From NCBI GenBank assembly GCA_003252455.1, contig QKED01000019.1, positions 1 through 34,330 on the forward strand: DNA of 34,330 bases, given 5' to 3'. A model generated the notes under the pieces. That model was not told where the DNA came from. It saw only the letters and a program-made list of their open reading frames with translations, and ran no database searches. The stretch comes from Gammaproteobacteria bacterium (lineage in GTDB: Bacteria > Pseudomonadota > Gammaproteobacteria > Thiohalomonadales > Thiohalomonadaceae). Below, piece by piece: positions 26,063-34,306 of this stretch. Numbering within the stretch: position 1 is the stretch's first letter; each line of letters opens with the position of its first letter. A program made the position numbers and the translations under genes.

Positions 26063-26611
26063 GCGGTGTGACTCGCCGCGGCGTAGCAGGAGGTAGAGTG
26101 CGCCCGTACCACCGTGTTCAGGCAGTGCCGAACAGAAGGCGAGGGTGTCGGGATAGTCGCGTAGCCAGTGGTTGACCATCCCTTTGAGCACTGGTTGCCC
26201 CTGCTGCGAGCTGTAGCCCTTACCATGGATGATCAGCACCGCGTGCACCCCGCGTTGGCGGCATTCGGCGAGGAATTCGAGCATCTCACTGCGCGCCTCC
26301 TCCACGCTCAGGCCGTGTAGGTCGAGGAGGGCATCGGGCGGGTATTGGCCGCGCCGTAGACGGCGCATCACCCGCTCTTGTACCCCCGGGACGGCGTAGT
26401 AGAGCGCCTCTCCCCCGTGTACCTGGGCCGTGCCCGCCTGGGTGGAGAAGAGGGCCGGGTGTTCCAGCGTGGCCCGCGCGGTGAAGCGCGGGCGCTGGGG
26501 GCGTTCGGGCGGGGTCGGGGGGATGGTGTCGTTGACCAGAGGCTGCACATCGGCCACCTCGCGGCGAAACAGCTCCAGCTCCTCCTCACTGATGGGGCGG
26601 CGGCGTGGCAT
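26042..26611 (-). CDS. Smr-domain protein
   Basis: A 189-residue protein. The N-terminal half (1-85) is polar and probably loosely folded. The C-terminal Smr domain (about 92-180) shows [12 protein letters not shown] (96-107), IIHGKG (127-132) and [14 protein letters not shown] (166-179). The Smr fold is a predicted nuclease; E. coli SmrB cleaves mRNA at collided ribosomes, while SmrA is less understood. Which paralogue this is cannot be fixed, though SmrA-like length and layout are plausible. The start [11 protein letters not shown] at 26611 agrees with the family; an upstream extension to 26662 was rejected. It is convergent with truD and divergent from surE (89-bp gap). Confidence 0.9.
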
Positions 26612-26700
26612 GGCGGGTTCCTTGGCAGGTGCGCTATTGTAGCAGTTTGTCCACACGCCCACGTGCCGAGCATTACGGCTTGATTTTGCAGGAGATCCGC

Positions 26701-27450
26701 GTGTCCATGAAGATCCTCATCAGCAACGACGATGGCTTCCTCGCCCCTGGTCTACGTACCTTGGCCGCCTATCTGGCCGCCGTCGGCGAGGTGACCGTGG
26801 TGGCCCCGGACCGTGATCGAAGTGGGGCCAGCAACTCCCTTACCCTCGACTATCCGCTACACGCCACCGAGACCGAGAACGGCTTCATCCGTGTCGATGG
26901 TACCCCCACCGACTGCGTCCACCTGGCCCTCACCGGCTTGCTCGACAACGAGCCCGACATCGTCGTATCGGGTATCAATGCTGGCGCCAATATGGGCGAT
27001 GACGTGCTCTACTCGGGCACCGTGGCCGCCGCCATGGAGGGACGCTTCCTGGGTCTGCCGGCCATTGCTATCTCGCTGGTCGGGCGTGAGCACTTCGAGA
27101 GTGCCGCGCGGGTGGCCGTGCAGTTGGTGCAGAACCTGCGCCATGAACCTATCTCGCCGGATGTCATCCTCAACGTCAATGTCCCGGACCTGCCCTATGA
27201 ACAGCTCAAGGGGATGGAGGTGACGCGCCTCGGGGCTCGGCACAAGTCCGAGCCGGTAGTGAAGGGCCACGACCCGCGCGGACGCCCTCTCTACTGGGTC
27301 GGTCCTGTGGGCAGTGAGGCGGATGCCGGGCCCGGGACCGACTTTCATGCCATCCGTGAGGGACGCGTCTCGATCACGCCGATCCACGCCGACCTCACCC
27401 GCCATAGCGCTCGCGACGCCCTCGCCCAGTGGCTCAAGCCCCTACAGTGA
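26701..27450 (+). CDS. surE: 5'/3'-nucleotidase SurE
   Basis: A 249-residue metal-dependent phosphatase that removes phosphate from nucleoside monophosphates and short polyphosphates. The metal-binding NDDG is ten residues from the start, and [19 protein letters not shown] holds the conserved Asn and Ser. AGGAGA lies 6 nt before the GTG at 26701, giving [12 protein letters not shown]. The ATG at 26707 gives the more usual [10 protein letters not shown] but sits 12 nt from the ribosome site, so either may be used. In many gammaproteobacteria surE is followed by pcm, then nlpD and rpoS; here yqaA follows directly and the others are not in the window. Confidence 0.95.
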
Positions 27451-27496
27451 ATACGCCTCACATGTCCCCCACCCACCTAAGCAACAAGGCCTGACC

Positions 27497-28072
27497 ATGT
27501 TCTCTACCCTCTATGCCCGCGCCATGCAGTGGGCGGTGCATCCGCACGCCAAACGCTATCTGGCTGGACTGAGCTTCGCCGAGTCCTCGTTCTTCCCGAT
27601 CCCGCCCGATGTGATGCTCGCCCCCATGGCCCTGGCACGCACCGACAAGGCCTGGGAGTACGCCCTGCTCACCACGTTGGCCTCGGTGCTCGGTGGACTG
27701 TTCGGCTACCTCATCGGCTACTTCGCCTTCGACCTCATCTCTGCTTGGCTGGAGCAGAGCCACTACTGGTCGGCCTATCTGCGCGCCCGGGAGTGGTTCG
27801 ATAGCTGGGGCTTTTGGGCCATCTTCTTGGCGGGGTTCTCCCCCATACCGTATAAGGTCTTTACCATCACCGCCGGTGTGGTGGGGATGAACATCCCGCT
27901 CTTCGTCCTGGCCTCACTTATCGGACGTGGTGCGCGATTTTATATGGTCGCGGGGTTGATGGTGTGGGGCGGCGCACGCATGGAGAGCCTATTGCGGCGC
28001 TATATCGACCGCATTGGTCTGGTGCTGGTGGTGTTGGCGGTGATCGCCTATGTCATGCTCAACGGGGGCTGA
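27497..28072 (+). CDS. yqaA: YqaA-family (VTT/DedA-like) membrane protein
   Basis: A 191-residue inner-membrane protein with the VTT/SNARE-associated fold. Family features are FAESSFFPIPPDVMLAPMAL near residue 30, the glycine-rich GGLFGYLIGY, and FLAGFSPIPYKVFTITAGV near residue 118, where the re-entrant loop and conserved basic residue occur. DedA relatives move undecaprenyl phosphate or polar lipids; the YqaA subgroup has no confirmed substrate. The ATG at 27497 has AAGG 7 nt upstream. The gene is 46 nt after surE, the expected location in proteobacteria once pcm is skipped. Confidence 0.9.
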   Translation: MFSTLYARAMQWAVHPHAKRYLAGLSFAESSFFPIPPDVMLAPMALARTDKAWEYALLTTLASVLGGLFGYLIGYFAFDLISAWLEQSHYWSAYLRAREWFDSWGFWAIFLAGFSPIPYKVFTITAGVVGMNIPLFVLASLIGRGARFYMVAGLMVWGGARMESLLRRYIDRIGLVLVVLAVIAYVMLNGG

Positions 28073-28114
28073 TTTGAGTCTCACCACGACCAGGATCTCT
28101 GTTACTTCCCTGAA

Positions 28115-28140
28115 GGCCGATTAAACTACCCCAATCGGTC
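28115..28140. other. Stem-loop upstream of the response regulator gene
   Basis: GGCCGATT (28115-28122) pairs with AATCGGTC (28133-28140), with one G-U pair in eight, around a 10-nt loop. It lies between yqaA and the signalling cassette, ending 16 nt before the ATG at 28157. It could be a leader structure or an operator half-site pair. No convincing promoter was found in the 84-bp gap. Confidence 0.35.
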
Positions 28141-28156
28141 ATAGGACGCAGTGCGC

Positions 28157-31045
28157 ATGAGTGACAAGGCCTCCATCCTCATTGTCGACGATATCCCTGA
28201 GAACATTCAGGTCGTCGCGCATATCCTCAAGTCGACGCGCTATGAGATGTCGTTCGCCACCAGTGGCGAAGATGCGCTGCACGCGGTCGCCGCCAGTCGC
28301 TTCGACCTGATCCTGCTCGACATCATGATGCCCACCATGGATGGCTTCGAGGTCTGCACCCGCCTGAAGCAAGACCCGGCAACGCAGGCGATACCGGTCA
28401 TCTTCCTCACCGCACGCTCCGATCACGACAGTCTGATCCGCGCCTTCGATGTGGGGGGTATCGACTACATCACCAAGCCGTTCAACGCCGCCGAACTGCT
28501 GGTGCGTGTCGATACCCACCTCTCGTTGCGGCGTACCCAGCGTGAGCTGAGCGAGCGCAACCTCAGCCTGCAGCGGCAGGTGGAGCAGACCCAGGCGGCG
28601 CAGAGCGCCCTCAAACGCGCGCACGAGGAGCTGCAGTTGTTCCTCGACAACATCCACGACTTGGCCCTGCACCGCCGTCTCGATGGCCAACCCATGCTCT
28701 GCAACAGCCGCTTTTTGGAGCTGACCGGCGTCGAGCCGACGCAACTCGGTGCCGTGGGGAGTTGGCTCGCCTTGATCCATCCTGACGACCAGTCCTGTCT
28801 ACGCTCGGTGTTCAGTGAGTACCCACAGGGGCGGGCATCGGCCGAGGTGAGTTATCGCCTGCGCGACCGGCAGGGGCAGTGGCGCTGGATCGAGTCGCGT
28901 TTAGTCGGTGTACCCGACGAGGCGGGTGGTTGGCGAGGCTATCACGACATCGGCCGCGATGTGACGGAGCAGCGTCTGGCGGTCGAGCGCGACCTCAACC
29001 GTGCCTACGGGCGTCTGGATGCCATTGTCGACGCCCTGCCGGACCAACTCTTCGTGCTTGATGAGCAGGAACGTGTGGTCGATTACCGAGTCCCGCAGTC
29101 GGAGTTGCAGTACACCGACCCCCATCGCTATCTCAATCACACTGTCGCCGAATTGATCCCGACGGAGGCCTATGCGCGGGTCCAGGTCGCGTTGGCGCAG
29201 GCGCGTCAATCCGGGCGCAGCAGTGGTGCCACCTACTCGCTCGATTTCGATGGGCAGACCCGCTGGTTCGAGCTCTCCGTCTCCAACGGTGGGCGGCGTG
29301 TCGATAATCAGCTGATCGTGCTGGTACGCGATATCAGCGAACGGGTCGATAACCTCGATCGCCTACGCCAGGCCGCCAGCGTGTTCAACAATGTGGCCGA
29401 GGCGATCCTCATCACCGACGCGCAGCAGCAGATCATCGCCGTCAACCACGCCTTTACGCGCATGACCGGTTGGGAGGAGGAGGAGTTGCGGGGGATGACG
29501 CCTTCGGTGCTGAAGTCCGGTGCCCATGACGCCCCCTACTACGATGAGCTGTGGAAGAGCCTCAACGAGACCGGTCATTGGCGTGGTGAATTCTGGAATC
29601 GGCGCAAAGGGGGCGAGGGCTTCCCGGTGGTCGAGAGCATCAACAGTGTGCTCGATGATGAGGGCGAGGTGCGCTTCTACATCGGTGTCTTCAGTGATGT
29701 CACTGAGCAGCGCCAGTCTCAGGAGCAGATCCGCCACCTCTCCGACTGGGACCTACTCACCGGCCTGCCCAACCGCAAGCTGCTCTTCGACCGTCTGCAT
29801 CAGGCCATCTCGCGGGCACGGCGTAACAGTGAGGGGCTGGCGCTCTTGCAGCTCGACCTCGATCGCTTCAAGCATATCAACGACAGTATGGGTCACCCGG
29901 TCGGCGACCAACTGCTCACTCAAGTGGCGCGGCGGCTTGAGCACATCACGCGCGACAACGATACCCTGGCGCGCGTCAGTGGCGATGAGTTCATCCTCCT
30001 GGTGGAGGATATCGACAACGCCTATCAGGTGGCGAATATCGCCGAGAAGCTGCAGGAGGCGTTTACCCCGGCCTACGCCTTGGACGACCTCTCGCTCTAT
30101 CTCTCCTGCAGTATCGGGATCAGTCTCTATCCGGAAGATGGGCAGGATGGGGATACCCTGCTGCGCAGTGCCGAGGCGGCCATGTACGCGGCTAAGGAGC
30201 ATGGTGGGGGCAACTATCGCTTCTTCACCAATGAGATGAGCACGCGTGCCTACCAGCGCATCCTGCTCGAAAGCCACCTGCGCCGTGCTCTGGTCGCCGA
30301 TGAGTTGGAGATCTACTTCCAGCCGCAGATCAGCCTCCCTGACCAAGCCGTGATTGGTGCCGAGGTCCTGGTGCGTTGGCAGCATCCAGAGCTGGGCCTC
30401 ATCATGCCGGATCAGTTCATCCCGCTGGCCGAGGAGAGTGGTCTCATTCTAGAGCTGGGACTGCAGGTGTTGCGTAAGGCGTGTCGCCAACTCCAGGCGT
30501 GGCGTGAGGCGGGGGTCGAGCTGGTCGACTACCTGGCAGTCAACGTCTCGGCACTGCAGGTGATGCGCTCGCCGCTCGTGGAACAGGTGCTCGATGTACT
30601 GCACGAAACGGGTCTACCGGCCCAATCACTGGAGCTGGAGATCACCGAAAATGCTATTATGCAAAACCCCGACCGAGCGGTAGAGATCTTCGGTGACCTA
30701 CGAAAGATGGGCGTTCGCCTCGCGTTGGACGATTTTGGTACCGGTTACTCCTCACTCGGCTACCTCAAGCGTCTACCCATCGACAAACTGAAGATCGACA
30801 AATCGTTCGTGCTGGACCTACTGACCGACAAGAATGACCGGGTCATCACTCATACCGTGGTCAATCTGGCCAAGAGCCTCGGCATCAAGGTGATCGCCGA
30901 AGGTGTCGAGGAGCAGGCACAGGCCGATTTTCTCCTCACCGAGGGTTGCGATGAGGGGCAGGGGTATCTCTACTCACGGCCCCTGCCCAGAGAGGCGTTT
31001 GAGCAGTGGGTCGAATCTCGACGTCACTCACTGATTGCTGTCTAG
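28157..31045 (+). CDS. REC-PAS-PAS-PAS-GGDEF-EAL response regulator (c-di-GMP turnover)
   Basis: A 962-residue cytoplasmic protein without membrane segments. Domain order: REC (about 3-120; phospho-acceptor Asp55, Lys107), coiled coil (125-160), PAS (160-278, PAS-PAC end DIGRDVTEQR), PAS (285-398), PAS (405-520), GGDEF (528-690) and EAL (702-950). The GGDEF signature reads SGDEF (608-612), preceded by an RxxD inhibitory site, RDND (599-602). The EAL signature reads EVL (736-738), with the other catalytic residues present: NVS, ELEITEN, DDFGTG, AEGVE and the QGY of the C-terminal strand. Both synthesis and breakdown of c-di-GMP are plausible. AGGACG is 8 nt before the ATG; a GTG at 28151 would add two residues. 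A REC-kinase gene follows 58 nt downstream. Confidence 0.93.
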   Translation: MSDKASILIVDDIPENIQVVAHILKSTRYEMSFATSGEDALHAVAASRFDLILLDIMMPTMDGFEVCTRLKQDPATQAIPVIFLTARSDHDSLIRAFDVGGIDYITKPFNAAELLVRVDTHLSLRRTQRELSERNLSLQRQVEQTQAAQSALKRAHEELQLFLDNIHDLALHRRLDGQPMLCNSRFLELTGVEPTQLGAVGSWLALIHPDDQSCLRSVFSEYPQGRASAEVSYRLRDRQGQWRWIESRLVGVPDEAGGWRGYHDIGRDVTEQRLAVERDLNRAYGRLDAIVDALPDQLFVLDEQERVVDYRVPQSELQYTDPHRYLNHTVAELIPTEAYARVQVALAQARQSGRSSGATYSLDFDGQTRWFELSVSNGGRRVDNQLIVLVRDISERVDNLDRLRQAASVFNNVAEAILITDAQQQIIAVNHAFTRMTGWEEEELRGMTPSVLKSGAHDAPYYDELWKSLNETGHWRGEFWNRRKGGEGFPVVESINSVLDDEGEVRFYIGVFSDVTEQRQSQEQIRHLSDWDLLTGLPNRKLLFDRLHQAISRARRNSEGLALLQLDLDRFKHINDSMGHPVGDQLLTQVARRLEHITRDNDTLARVSGDEFILLVEDIDNAYQVANIAEKLQEAFTPAYALDDLSLYLSCSIGISLYPEDGQDGDTLLRSAEAAMYAAKEHGGGNYRFFTNEMSTRAYQRILLESHLRRALVADELEIYFQPQISLPDQAVIGAEVLVRWQHPELGLIMPDQFIPLAEESGLILELGLQVLRKACRQLQAWREAGVELVDYLAVNVSALQVMRSPLVEQVLDVLHETGLPAQSLELEITENAIMQNPDRAVEIFGDLRKMGVRLALDDFGTGYSSLGYLKRLPIDKLKIDKSFVLDLLTDKNDRVITHTVVNLAKSLGIKVIAEGVEEQAQADFLLTEGCDEGQGYLYSRPLPREAFEQWVESRRHSLIAV

Positions 31046-31103
31046 GCGTCAGCCAGTGAGTCCGTTATTGTATGCAGTAATTGCTAATACCTGGAGAAGG
31101 TAG

Positions 31104-32210
31104 ATGAGTTCCGAGCGTAAACCGAACATCCTCATCGTCGACGACGTCGCGGAGAATATCCAGATCGTCGCCAGCACCCTACAACGTGAGGGATACGACA
31201 TGAGTTTTGCCACGAGTGGCAAAGCCGCCCTGGAGAGTGTCGCGCAGGACGCCTTCGACCTGGTACTTCTAGACGTTATGATGCCCGAGATGAACGGTTT
31301 CGAGGTGTGCGAGCAGCTGCGCGCCAACCCGCGTACCGCCAACCTGCCGGTCATCTTCCTCACCGCCAAGACCGATGCCGAGAGCATCGTGCGTGGTTTT
31401 GCCGTCGGTGGCGTCGACTACGTGACCAAACCCTTCAACGCCTCGGAGCTGAACGCCCGCGTTCGCACCCACTTGCGCCTACGTCGCACCGAACAAGAGC
31501 TGCGCGAGCTGAACGACAGCAAGGATAAGTTCATCTCGATCATCGCCCACGACCTGCGTATCCCTTTCAGTGGTTTGAGCGGCATTCTCAAGCTCCTCAG
31601 CCGCGACCCCGACTCACTGAGCCGCGAGGAGTTGCTGGAGTACCTGGGGTTGGCTCAGGAGTCGGCAGACAACATCAACCACCTCCTCACCAACCTGCTC
31701 TCATGGTCGGGTCTGATGCAAGGGATGGTCAGCTTCCGCCCCTACGATTTCCTCCTCAAGCCGGTCTTCGACGACGTCACATTCCTGTTCCGCAATGATG
31801 CAGCGGCCAAGTCGATCCGCTTCGAAACCGGTGGGGCTGAGGGGGTGTGGGTGTTTGGCGACCTGGAGATGCTGGAGAGCGTGCTGCGCAATCTCGTTTC
31901 CAACGCCATCAAGTTCAGTCATGCGAATCAGGTCATTCAAATCAGCGCCAGCACGAGCGGCGCCGAGGTGACCGTGTGTGTCGCTGACCAGGGGATCGGC
32001 ATCGACCCCGAGCTTCAGGTCGAGATCTTCTCCCTCGGCAGCAAATTGAAGGAGACCGGCACTGAAGGTGAGATGGGCACCGGCATGGGGCTCATCCTCA
32101 GCCGCGAGCAGGTCGAGCGCAACGGTGGACGCATCTGGCTGGAGAGCCGACCGGAGGAGGGCACCAAGGTCTACTTCACCCTGCCGATCGGCAAGGATAG
32201 CAGCGAGTGA
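31104..32210 (+). CDS. REC-HisKA-HATPase hybrid histidine kinase
   Basis: A 368-residue soluble protein. REC occupies about 5-122 (Asp57 phospho-acceptor, Lys109), a short coiled linker follows, and the HisKA dimerisation helix carries His149 in IIAHDLRIPFSGL. The HATPase_c domain (about 245-362) has the N box with Asn267 (LRNLVSNAIKFSH), G1 DQGIG (295-299) and G2 GTGMGL (325-330). No sensor or membrane domain is present, so activity may be set by phosphorylation of its own REC domain. That REC is about 60% identical by eye to the REC of the upstream gene, including the extended RRTEQEL tail. GGAGAAGG precedes the ATG. Confidence 0.93.
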   Translation: MSSERKPNILIVDDVAENIQIVASTLQREGYDMSFATSGKAALESVAQDAFDLVLLDVMMPEMNGFEVCEQLRANPRTANLPVIFLTAKTDAESIVRGFAVGGVDYVTKPFNASELNARVRTHLRLRRTEQELRELNDSKDKFISIIAHDLRIPFSGLSGILKLLSRDPDSLSREELLEYLGLAQESADNINHLLTNLLSWSGLMQGMVSFRPYDFLLKPVFDDVTFLFRNDAAAKSIRFETGGAEGVWVFGDLEMLESVLRNLVSNAIKFSHANQVIQISASTSGAEVTVCVADQGIGIDPELQVEIFSLGSKLKETGTEGEMGTGMGLILSREQVERNGGRIWLESRPEEGTKVYFTLPIGKDSSE

Positions 32211-32211
32211 A

Positions 32212-32246
32212 CCAGGTCAGTGAGTTACCCGACACTGCCGACCTGG
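32212..32246. other. Stem-loop leader before the third signalling gene
   Basis: CCAGGTC (32212-32218) pairs with GACCTGG (32240-32246); the helix can extend with AGTG (32219-32222) and CACT (32233-32236) past a 3-nt bulge. It begins just after the stop of the histidine kinase and ends 25 nt before the next ATG. No T run follows. It could modulate relative expression of the two genes. Confidence 0.45.
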
Positions 32247-32271
32247 ATAGCACTAACTAGGGGAATCCTCC

Positions 32272-33081
32272 ATGTACCATGAGTTGCCCTTACAGGATTT
32301 TCTCAAGTCGCTGCTTGCCATTGCACTTGAGAAGCGTACCGGCACCATCTTCTTCGTTACCGAGGACGAGGGGTGGGGAAAGGTCGCCTTCGATAAAGGT
32401 GAGATCGTCTCACTCGGTTACAAGATGAAGTGGGGCCTGGACGCACTCCCGCTCATTCACGAGATCGATAAGGCTCAATTCTACTTTCGACCCCAAGAGT
32501 TGCATCTGGCCCAGGCGCAACGTCTGAGTGGTCTCAGCAACCAAGACATCTTCCTCTACTTCGGTATTAACTACGACCGTGCCCTGGAGGCAAACAAACA
32601 GCGTAGTGCCCCCTCTGTCAGTGGGGCTGCCACTGCTAGTGCGATGCCACAGCCGTCGATCTCCGCCGCCGCACGTGGTGCCCGCAGTGCCGACCCGCTC
32701 AATGTGTCGGTGGAGCACAAACCGAAGATCCTGGTTGCCGACGATAGCGGTATTGCACGTAAGTCCATCTCCCGTGTGCTCTTAGCGGCCAACTATGAAG
32801 TGATCGAGGCACGAGACGGTTTCGAGGCGCTCGGGCAGATCGAGAATGAACACCCGGACCTGGTTGTACTCGACCTCATCATGCCCGGCATCGATGGTTA
32901 TCAGGTCTTACACATGATGAAGAAGAACTCTCAGACGCGTGACCTGCCGGTGATCATCCTCACCTCGCGCGATAGCCTGATGGATAAGCTCAAGGGCAAG
33001 ATGAGTGAGTCGGATGAGTATCTGACCAAGCCGTTCGAACCCGAGACACTACTACAGAAGGTCAATAAGTACCTCGCCTAG
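32272..33081 (+). CDS. PatA/DUF4388-like N-terminal domain fused to REC
   Basis: A 269-residue soluble protein. The N-terminal part (about 1-105) resembles DUF4388/PatA N-terminal domains: LQDFLKSLLAIALEKRTGTI, then GKVAFDKGEIVSLGYKMKWG. A flexible Ser/Ala/Pro linker (about 108-148) leads to a C-terminal receiver domain (150-269; Asp157/Asp158 acidic pocket, phospho-acceptor Asp201, Thr/Ser230-232, Lys253). Members of this group act in gliding, twitching or heterocyst signalling, but the role is not fixed. The REC is less similar to the two upstream REC domains. It has no output domain, so it probably works by protein-protein binding. GGGGAA is 7 nt before the ATG. Confidence 0.85.
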   Translation: MYHELPLQDFLKSLLAIALEKRTGTIFFVTEDEGWGKVAFDKGEIVSLGYKMKWGLDALPLIHEIDKAQFYFRPQELHLAQAQRLSGLSNQDIFLYFGINYDRALEANKQRSAPSVSGAATASAMPQPSISAAARGARSADPLNVSVEHKPKILVADDSGIARKSISRVLLAANYEVIEARDGFEALGQIENEHPDLVVLDLIMPGIDGYQVLHMMKKNSQTRDLPVIILTSRDSLMDKLKGKMSESDEYLTKPFEPETLLQKVNKYLA

Positions 33082-33105: not shown

Positions 33106-33151
33106 GCATGAAAAAGCCCCTGACTCTCACGACTCAGGGGCTTTTTCATGC
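33106..33151. terminator. Strong bidirectional terminator
   Basis: An 18-bp perfect stem, GCATGAAAAAGCCCCTGA (33106-33123) and its exact complement at 33134-33151, surrounds a 10-nt loop. The arms contain A5 and T5 flanking the GC core, so both strands present a GC hairpin followed by a T run. It ends the signalling cassette on the plus strand and the LbtU-like porin gene on the minus strand. Confidence 0.95.
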
Positions 33152-33189: not shown

Positions 33190-34260
33190 TTAGAATTCTA
33201 CGGCTAGTTGCATCCCGGTCCAGTTGCTCTTGGTGCCGCTATAGTCCTCGGCACTCCCCAACTCAATGGCGAGGCTGGTCGCCTCCATCACCTGCATAGA
33301 GAAGGTGGCCAAGGTAGCCTTCTCGGGCAGAGCGAGCCACTCGGCATCCTCAGTGGTCTGGGTGCTGAGGGCGAGGGTAGCGTCCTTACCCGCGACATCG
33401 AGCTGGAAGCTCAGCTCCACGTTGCTCGCCTTGGCGGTACTCGGTAGGCCCAGGCCAGCATCGATGTTGTCGCTGGCCTGTACCTGCTCGAAGATGAACC
33501 CGAACGGGCCCATCTCGGCGTTGGCGTGGAATGCGGTACCAGAGACCAGCTCGGCCAGACCCTTAGTGGTGGTCGGGGTGAGACTCGCGTCGTCCAGCGC
33601 CGTACTAATGTTGCCACTCTCGGCCATGGAGCTGATGTAACCAACGCCCACATCGAGTGTGAAGCCCTCGCCCTCGAAGATAAAGCCGATATTGCCGCCG
33701 AACTGGGCCACGGTGTCGTTGGCCTCGGTGGCCTCCTGGCTGACGCCATTGAAGGCGTAGATATCACCGTAGATACCACCAAGGTCGAAGCCGAACAACA
33801 GGGCACTGTTGTAGGTTTCAGCGACCTCAAGGGTCAGCGGATCGGAAACCTGGTAGGTGTCGAAGCGTCCGAAGGGGAGCCACATCTGGCCAGCGGTGAT
33901 ATAGGTGGAACCCATGTGGATGGTGATCGTCGCCTCATCCACATTGAGGCCGGTGTCGTTGGCGGTGTCTATATCCTCATTGAGCAGGACGATGGAGGCC
34001 GTGGTGGCGTCGTTGATCTCTGCCTCGATGTCCAGCTCGACGGTGGCGGTGTAGATATCGGAGTCATCCTCCATCTTTACCGCCTCGACCTCGACGAGCC
34101 CACCGACATTGATACGCTTGCTCCAATCCCCTCCGGCGTTGGCCGCCTCCAGGGCCTCCACGCGGGCGGATAGGTCGGACATCTCGGCGGCGCCAGCCGC
34201 GGCGGTGCAGGCCAGGCCCGCCATGATGAGGGCGATTCGGATCGGTGAGAGGTGGTTCAT
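33190..34260 (-). CDS. LbtU-family siderophore porin
   Basis: A 356-residue outer-membrane protein. A signal peptide (MNHLSPIRIALIMAGLACTA, cleaved near AGAAE) is followed by a short coiled segment (SDLSARVEALEAAN) and then a long beta-barrel with many amphipathic strands. The barrel includes INVGGLVEVEAVKMED, TYITAGQMWLPFGRFDTYQV and SDPLTLEVAETYNSALLFGF. It ends MQLAVEF, a terminal Phe for BAM. These features match LbtU of Legionella, which takes up legiobactin without TonB. The ATG at 34260 has GGAG 8 nt upstream; a TTG at 34266 adds two residues. Whether this copy carries a siderophore is inference; no clear Fur box was found. Confidence 0.85.
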   Translation of the reverse strand: MNHLSPIRIALIMAGLACTAAAGAAEMSDLSARVEALEAANAGGDWSKRINVGGLVEVEAVKMEDDSDIYTATVELDIEAEINDATTASIVLLNEDIDTANDTGLNVDEATITIHMGSTYITAGQMWLPFGRFDTYQVSDPLTLEVAETYNSALLFGFDLGGIYGDIYAFNGVSQEATEANDTVAQFGGNIGFIFEGEGFTLDVGVGYISSMAESGNISTALDDASLTPTTTKGLAELVSGTAFHANAEMGPFGFIFEQVQASDNIDAGLGLPSTAKASNVELSFQLDVAGKDATLALSTQTTEDAEWLALPEKATLATFSMQVMEATSLAIELGSAEDYSGTKSNWTGMQLAVEF

Positions 34261-34306
34261 GGGCAATGCTCCGTATCAGCTTGAGAGGGATGAGTCTAGG
34301 CTCAAA

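Follow-up and report, generated by a model that had tools for sequence, protein, structure and literature searches.

A possible split-output phosphorelay operon with twin receiver domains on a c-di-GMP enzyme and a Rec-controlled kinase

Introduction

Rec-controlled histidine kinases are common, and the input and network place of most of them are unknown. Their structural prototype is LvrB, for which a seven-residue preference has been reported in the spacing between the REC and DHp domains (PMC13269768). In Leptospira, LvrA phosphorylates the REC domain of LvrB, and the LvrB kinase then phosphorylates LvrC (PMC13269768). A comparable cascade operates in Rhodospirillum centenum, where CheA3 phosphorylates the first of the CheS3 receivers (REC1) and the CheS3 kinase phosphorylates CheY3 (PMC3868531). 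The sign of REC control differs between the two: LvrB is activated (PMC13269768) and CheS3 is inhibited (PMC3868531). Among small REC proteins, PixG and PilG of Synechocystis are set in chemosensory clusters, and their PATAN domains bind the pilus motor PilB (PMC10519157, PMC7690835).

Here we describe a three-gene cassette in a 34,330-nucleotide stretch of gammaproteobacterial DNA (the window) that combines a c-di-GMP enzyme, a kinase of the LvrB type and a small REC protein. The host genome is a 4.58 Mb draft that is 99.7% complete; it encodes 30 EAL domains, and REC matches number about 118. The cassette is real and not an artefact, and its component parts are already known. In the open-access literature searched we found no description of a twin-REC or REC-GGDEF/REC-HK cassette, an absence that is not proof; the cassette combination and the recurrent twin-receiver tandem described below appear to be undescribed in those papers.

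Results

The three genes run in the same direction with gaps of 58 bp (genes 1 and 2) and 61 bp (genes 2 and 3). Their coordinates, order and domains, as listed in a first-pass annotation of this DNA, hold in the open reading frames and Pfam matches (Table 1). Gene 1 starts at ATG 28157, and a GTG 6 bp upstream is also possible. A promoter scan of the cassette returned no strong promoter. The single strong terminator claimed at its end was missed by a simple scan but revealed by folding, as a hairpin between gene 3 and a convergent porin-like gene that serves both. This gene, for a porin-like outer-membrane protein, occupies 33190–34266 of the window. Upstream of the cassette (26605–28157) lie surE and a gene for a YqaA-like membrane protein; the surE region in gammaproteobacteria often also holds pcm, nlpD and rpoS. 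No hybrid kinase gene was found within a few genes of the cassette, whose neighbours are surE, the YqaA-like gene and the porin gene.

Table 1 Features of the cassette, in window coordinates
Feature	Coordinates	Strand	Description	Basis
Gene 1 (P0001)	28157..31045	+	962 aa, REC-PAS x3-GGDEF-EAL	ORF and Pfam
REC1 with signalling-helix tail (conserved)	28166..28573	+		Identity to REC2, genome-wide best match
Gene 2 (P0002)	31104..32210	+	368 aa, REC-HisKA-HATPase_c, sensorless	Pfam, AlphaFold model, structure match
REC2 with tail	31119..31526	+	REC1 twin	Identity and best match in genome
Gene 3 (P0003)	32272..33081	+	269 aa, N-domain, linker and REC	Pfam, homologue context
Intrinsic terminator hairpin	33107..33150	.	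Bidirectional	Folding: -29.9 kcal/mol, z -5.0

All three receivers keep the phospho-acceptor aspartate (D55 in REC1, D57 in REC2, D201 in REC3) together with the acidic pair, the threonine and the lysine. Gene 1 carries an RDND I-site, its GGDEF motif reads SGDEF, and its EAL domain retains the catalytic EVL and DDFGTG motifs together with the catalytic K and E. Both enzymatic domains look catalytically competent, and the REC aspartate and catalytic motifs together class gene 1, by sequence, as a REC-GGDEF-EAL response regulator. The closest solved relative of the twin REC and its tail, by sequence, is PleD.

Gene 2 fuses one N-terminal REC directly to HisKA-HATPase_c, an architecture without a sensor domain seen both in Pfam matches and in the structural model. 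H149, N267 and the G boxes are intact and, like D57, invariant or nearly so in an alignment of 21 sequences. In an AlphaFold model made with 21 sequences (pLDDT 88), a single unbroken helix, residues 113–167, carries REC alpha5 into DHp. A structure search with this model returned LvrB (8vc9) as the best PDB match, over the full length and with low TM-scores (0.38), which we read as the same domains in a different arrangement. The KP-to-His spacing of gene 2 is 40, which puts it in the commonest class among the REC-HKs compared; 85 of the 112, gene 2 included, have an alpha-S heptad register of 5 mod 7. By its architecture and residues gene 2 is a Rec-controlled histidine kinase of the LvrB type, and the earlier proposal of a kinase under the control of its own REC is supported.

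The first-pass annotation had also placed REC1 and REC2 at about 60% identity by eye, tail included, with different outputs. The measured identity is 60–62% (for example 61% across 132 aa that take in the tail as far as about residue 136), and the common tail runs into the start of the dimerising signalling helix. Among the roughly 118 RECs of the host genome the two are mutual best matches: REC1 finds REC2 at 166 bits (next best 134.5) and REC2 finds REC1 at 168.6 bits (next best 142.9). They have two of five specificity positions in common. Other proteins come as close, REC1 reaching 60% with receivers of gammaproteobacterial REC-HD-GYP proteins and REC2 reaching 62–65%, equal to or above REC1, with the RECs of a Desulfobacterales cassette (L051). 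Because of this last comparison, the resemblance is no more than suggestive of duplication. Any duplication was not recent, since the DNA identity is 63% and 21 of 41 fourfold sites agree, where chance would give 36%. A tree of REC domains had been proposed as a check; trees of 120, 60 and 32 RECs gave no resolved grouping of REC1 with REC2, and clade tests rejected neither this pair nor a grouping of REC2 with other RECs. We therefore call REC1 and REC2 twins by resemblance, for which duplication in place is possible, and dropped the claim of a proven local duplication.

To place the pair in a wider setting, REC-HK relatives from named and anonymous genomes were gathered into a non-redundant set of 237 loci, which hold 136 REC-HK genes, and the REC of each REC-HK was compared with the REC of its co-directional neighbour. 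As the loci were chosen for their similarity to gene 2, the counts do not give frequencies in nature. Adjacent N-terminal RECs fall into two groups, either alike (51–93%) or unrelated (at most 44%). REC-GGDEF adjoins REC-HK in 15 loci, with the GGDEF gene upstream in 14. The median REC identity in these 15 tandems is 59%, against 44% in 2974 unlinked pairs (99th percentile 58%). A hybrid kinase, absent at the window, is close by in 13 of the tandems, and one further contig ends too early.

REC pairs are well-supported sisters in L051, L055, L064, L075, L275 and L280, and such sister forks occur in unrelated lineages. Since several adjacent pairs are such sisters, twin RECs have, on the evidence of these trees, arisen repeatedly. 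In one larger clade the receivers of REC-GGDEF proteins fall into one subclade and those of REC-HKs into the one next to it, a pattern pointing to a single old duplication after which both copies were inherited together. Helix 1, the kinase-contacting helix, is identical at a mean of 6.4 of 14 positions over all 37 adjacent pairs, compared with 3.6 in 14,618 unlinked pairs, and mostly at 7–13 of 14 within twin pairs. This likeness within adjacent pairs fits a shared donor.

The output of the REC-HK's twin is GGDEF, HD-GYP or SpoIIE. In two Bacteroidota loci (L055, 4274–6591; L075, 2811–5275) the twin is a REC-SpoIIE phosphatase and not a c-di-GMP enzyme. The host genome itself carries a second twin cassette (L137, 12898–19975; contig C5, about 36898–43975), composed of a PAS-rich hybrid kinase, a REC-GAF-PAS-GGDEF protein and a REC-HK-REC protein, with RECs that are 72% identical. 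In four loci (L276, L284, L288 and L303) an extra REC gene lies directly 3' of the REC-HK, in the slot occupied here by gene 3. The small RECs at this place in L284, L288 and L276 have in common a distinct helix 1 (LRLMYxKAF-like), unlike that of the twins. These small RECs are likely targets of the kinase.

Gene 3 begins with a domain of about 100 residues, followed by a low-complexity linker and a REC of the PilG/PixG type (residues 153–264, Pfam). The earlier description of gene 3 as a PatA-like REC protein stands for the REC; a PATAN-like, or PatA-like, N-terminal domain is weakly supported, its match to DUF4388 scoring 18.6 bits against a cut-off of 25. PATAN/DUF4388 scores fall below the Pfam threshold in every gene 3 relative tested, and the fold model of gene 3 was too poor to use. 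N-terminal domains of this type are rare, occurring in 19 of 369 genomes of the class sample at E ≤ 1e-3 and in 2 of 398 genomes of the phylum sample at E ≤ 1e-6, the host genome being counted in both.

The closest relatives of gene 3 are a paralogue on contig C116 of the same genome (44%) and proteins of other gammaproteobacteria. These homologues are encoded at the head of Chp/Pix-like chemosensory clusters that also contain CheB, MCP, CheW, CheY and CheA, and the window copy sits outside any such cluster. On contig C116 (L133, 4172–15537) the cluster holds a PATAN-like REC protein, two CheB proteins, a dCache MCP, CheW, CheY and a multi-Hpt CheA, and similar clusters occur in several gammaproteobacteria (L132, L180–L183). 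The host genome also encodes, on contig C55, a PilB that scores above the NCBIfam cut-off.

Co-occurrence of the three genes elsewhere, another check that had been proposed, gave a divided result. Beyond the fetched loci the trio was sought in hit lists with strict cut-offs. The full trio was found in none of 95 relatives, nor in the class (369 genomes) and phylum (398 genomes) samples, and conservation of the complete trio was dropped on these counts. Genes 1 and 2 represent a widespread tandem, and genes 2 and 3 recur once, in another genus of the same family (G013), where the REC-HK is paired with a gene-3-like gene without the GGDEF-EAL gene. Tree support for the orthology of gene 3 with its G013 counterpart is weak. 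This pair suggests an older partnership of genes 2 and 3, to which gene 1 was added later or from which it was lost in G013.

Discussion

Our preferred reading, held with about as much belief as doubt, is that the cassette is a split-output phosphorelay operon in which an outside kinase feeds both twins and the REC-HK feeds the third REC. In the scheme that we infer, from the phosphotransfers and the identity of the donor to the sign of each output and the pilus target, an unlinked histidine kinase, probably a hybrid, would phosphorylate REC1 and REC2. Phosphorylated REC1 would shift the balance between synthesis and breakdown of c-di-GMP by the GGDEF-EAL protein. Phosphorylated REC2 would act as the sensor of the REC-HK, the alpha-S coiled-coil forming and H149 autophosphorylation being switched as in LvrB. 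The REC-HK would then phosphorylate the dissimilar receiver of gene 3, whose PATAN-like domain would most likely act on the type IV pilus motor, and a single signal would set c-di-GMP level and pilus activity jointly. Coupling of phosphorelay to c-di-GMP level, as first suggested for this locus, is supported, the phosphotransfers themselves being predicted.

The assignment of the twins to an outside kinase, and of REC3 to the REC-HK, follows LvrB and CheS3, the only two characterised REC-headed kinases that we found, in both of which the REC is phosphorylated by another kinase and the target is a third protein. The 15 tandems with matching RECs, the sister forks and the hybrid kinase near 13 of the 15 argue for it, as do the slot of gene 3 beside other REC-HKs and the REC-HK/PATAN-REC pair of G013. 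The pilus target is suggested by analogy with the PilB-binding PATAN regulators of Synechocystis and by the PilB of the host. Several points count against the split-output reading. The lack of an adjacent hybrid kinase makes the donor hypothetical; the PATAN assignment of gene 3 is sub-threshold and its model too poor; its REC resembles CheA-fed receivers, so the Chp-like CheA of contig C116 could phosphorylate REC3 instead; the twins agree at just two of five specificity positions; and, on the CheS3 precedent, REC phosphorylation might inhibit the kinase.

The first-pass annotation had instead let the kinase phosphorylate both neighbours. With the REC-HK as sole kinase of the cassette, its own REC would provide feedback. 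A kinase and response regulators in one operon are usually partners, and no further kinase adjoins the cassette. However, neither in LvrB nor in CheS3 do the kinase and its REC share a partner, a precedent that makes this wiring less likely than an outside donor. REC1 resembles REC2 and not REC3, so that a single DHp surface would have two dissimilar receivers to serve, one of them resembling the kinase's own REC, and a sensorless kinase still requires an input. We consider this wiring rather unlikely.

Distinctly unlikely, in our judgement, is that the three regulators have separate donors and merely lie in one operon, gene 3 answering to the Chp-like CheA of contig C116. The genome is rich in signalling proteins (118 RECs and 30 EAL domains), gene 3 is nearest to Chp-cluster proteins and the trio is not conserved, but REC-c-di-GMP enzymes and REC-HKs recur in tandem with RECs more alike than unlinked pairs, and a second genus retains the REC-HK/PATAN-REC pair. 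Very improbable is direct coupling through REC1–REC2 heterodimers, with the likeness kept for dimerisation and not for a common donor: response regulators do pair through 4-5-5 faces, alike RECs could by our reasoning do so too, and conservation includes the tail leading into the dimerising signalling helix, but the likeness extends to helix 1, the kinase contact.

Beyond this locus, we tentatively suggest, with somewhat more doubt than belief, that twin-receiver modules are a general and repeatedly evolved splitter, in which a REC is duplicated between an effector and a Rec-controlled kinase while donor specificity is kept in common; the window would be a variant in which the local donor was lost and a third output, of pilus type, was added. 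If so, one hybrid kinase would drive a second-messenger output at once and a relay output with a delay, the effector being a c-di-GMP enzyme or, in Bacteroidota, a SpoIIE-type phosphatase. For Rec-controlled kinases the tandem would then predict partners from sequence: a donor in common with the adjacent REC effector, and as target the unlike REC beside the kinase. It offers a directly testable case in which one phosphosignal is divided, part going to c-di-GMP and part to a second kinase; should gene 3 act on pili, c-di-GMP and type IV pilus motility would be under joint control. The interest rests on the general twin-receiver pattern more than on this single locus.

Compared with described systems, gene 2 is like LvrB in its Rec-DHp-CA architecture, its full-length structure match and the heptad register of its Rec-DHp helix. 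It differs in its spacing of 40, the shortest common class here, and in having no adjoining LvrA-like hybrid kinase; unlike LvrB, it lies between a c-di-GMP enzyme and a PATAN-like REC protein, and LvrB is a structural precedent only. The CheA3-CheS3-CheY3 cascade likewise has a REC-headed kinase whose REC is phosphorylated by another kinase and which passes phosphate on to a separate regulator. CheS3, however, combines an HWE kinase core with a PAS and two RECs, and a c-di-GMP enzyme twin is not described there. With PleD-like and other REC-GGDEF(-EAL) regulators gene 1 has in common c-di-GMP turnover under REC control; it differs by three inserted PAS domains, an added EAL and the twin of its REC in the next gene. 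Gene 3 resembles PixG/PilG of Synechocystis and PatA in its small N-terminal domain and C-terminal REC, and its homologues, as with PixG/PilG, head clusters of MCP, CheW, CheY, CheA and CheB, whereas gene 3 itself has a sub-threshold PATAN match and adjoins a REC-HK rather than CheA. The tandems of hybrid kinase, REC-GGDEF and REC-HK (L280, L288, L303, L305, L307 and the host's own contig C5) are like the window in placing a REC-c-di-GMP enzyme immediately upstream of a REC-HK with a matching REC (62% in the window). The window differs from them in having no hybrid kinase, in the three PAS domains and the EAL of gene 1, and in its third gene, a PATAN-like REC protein.
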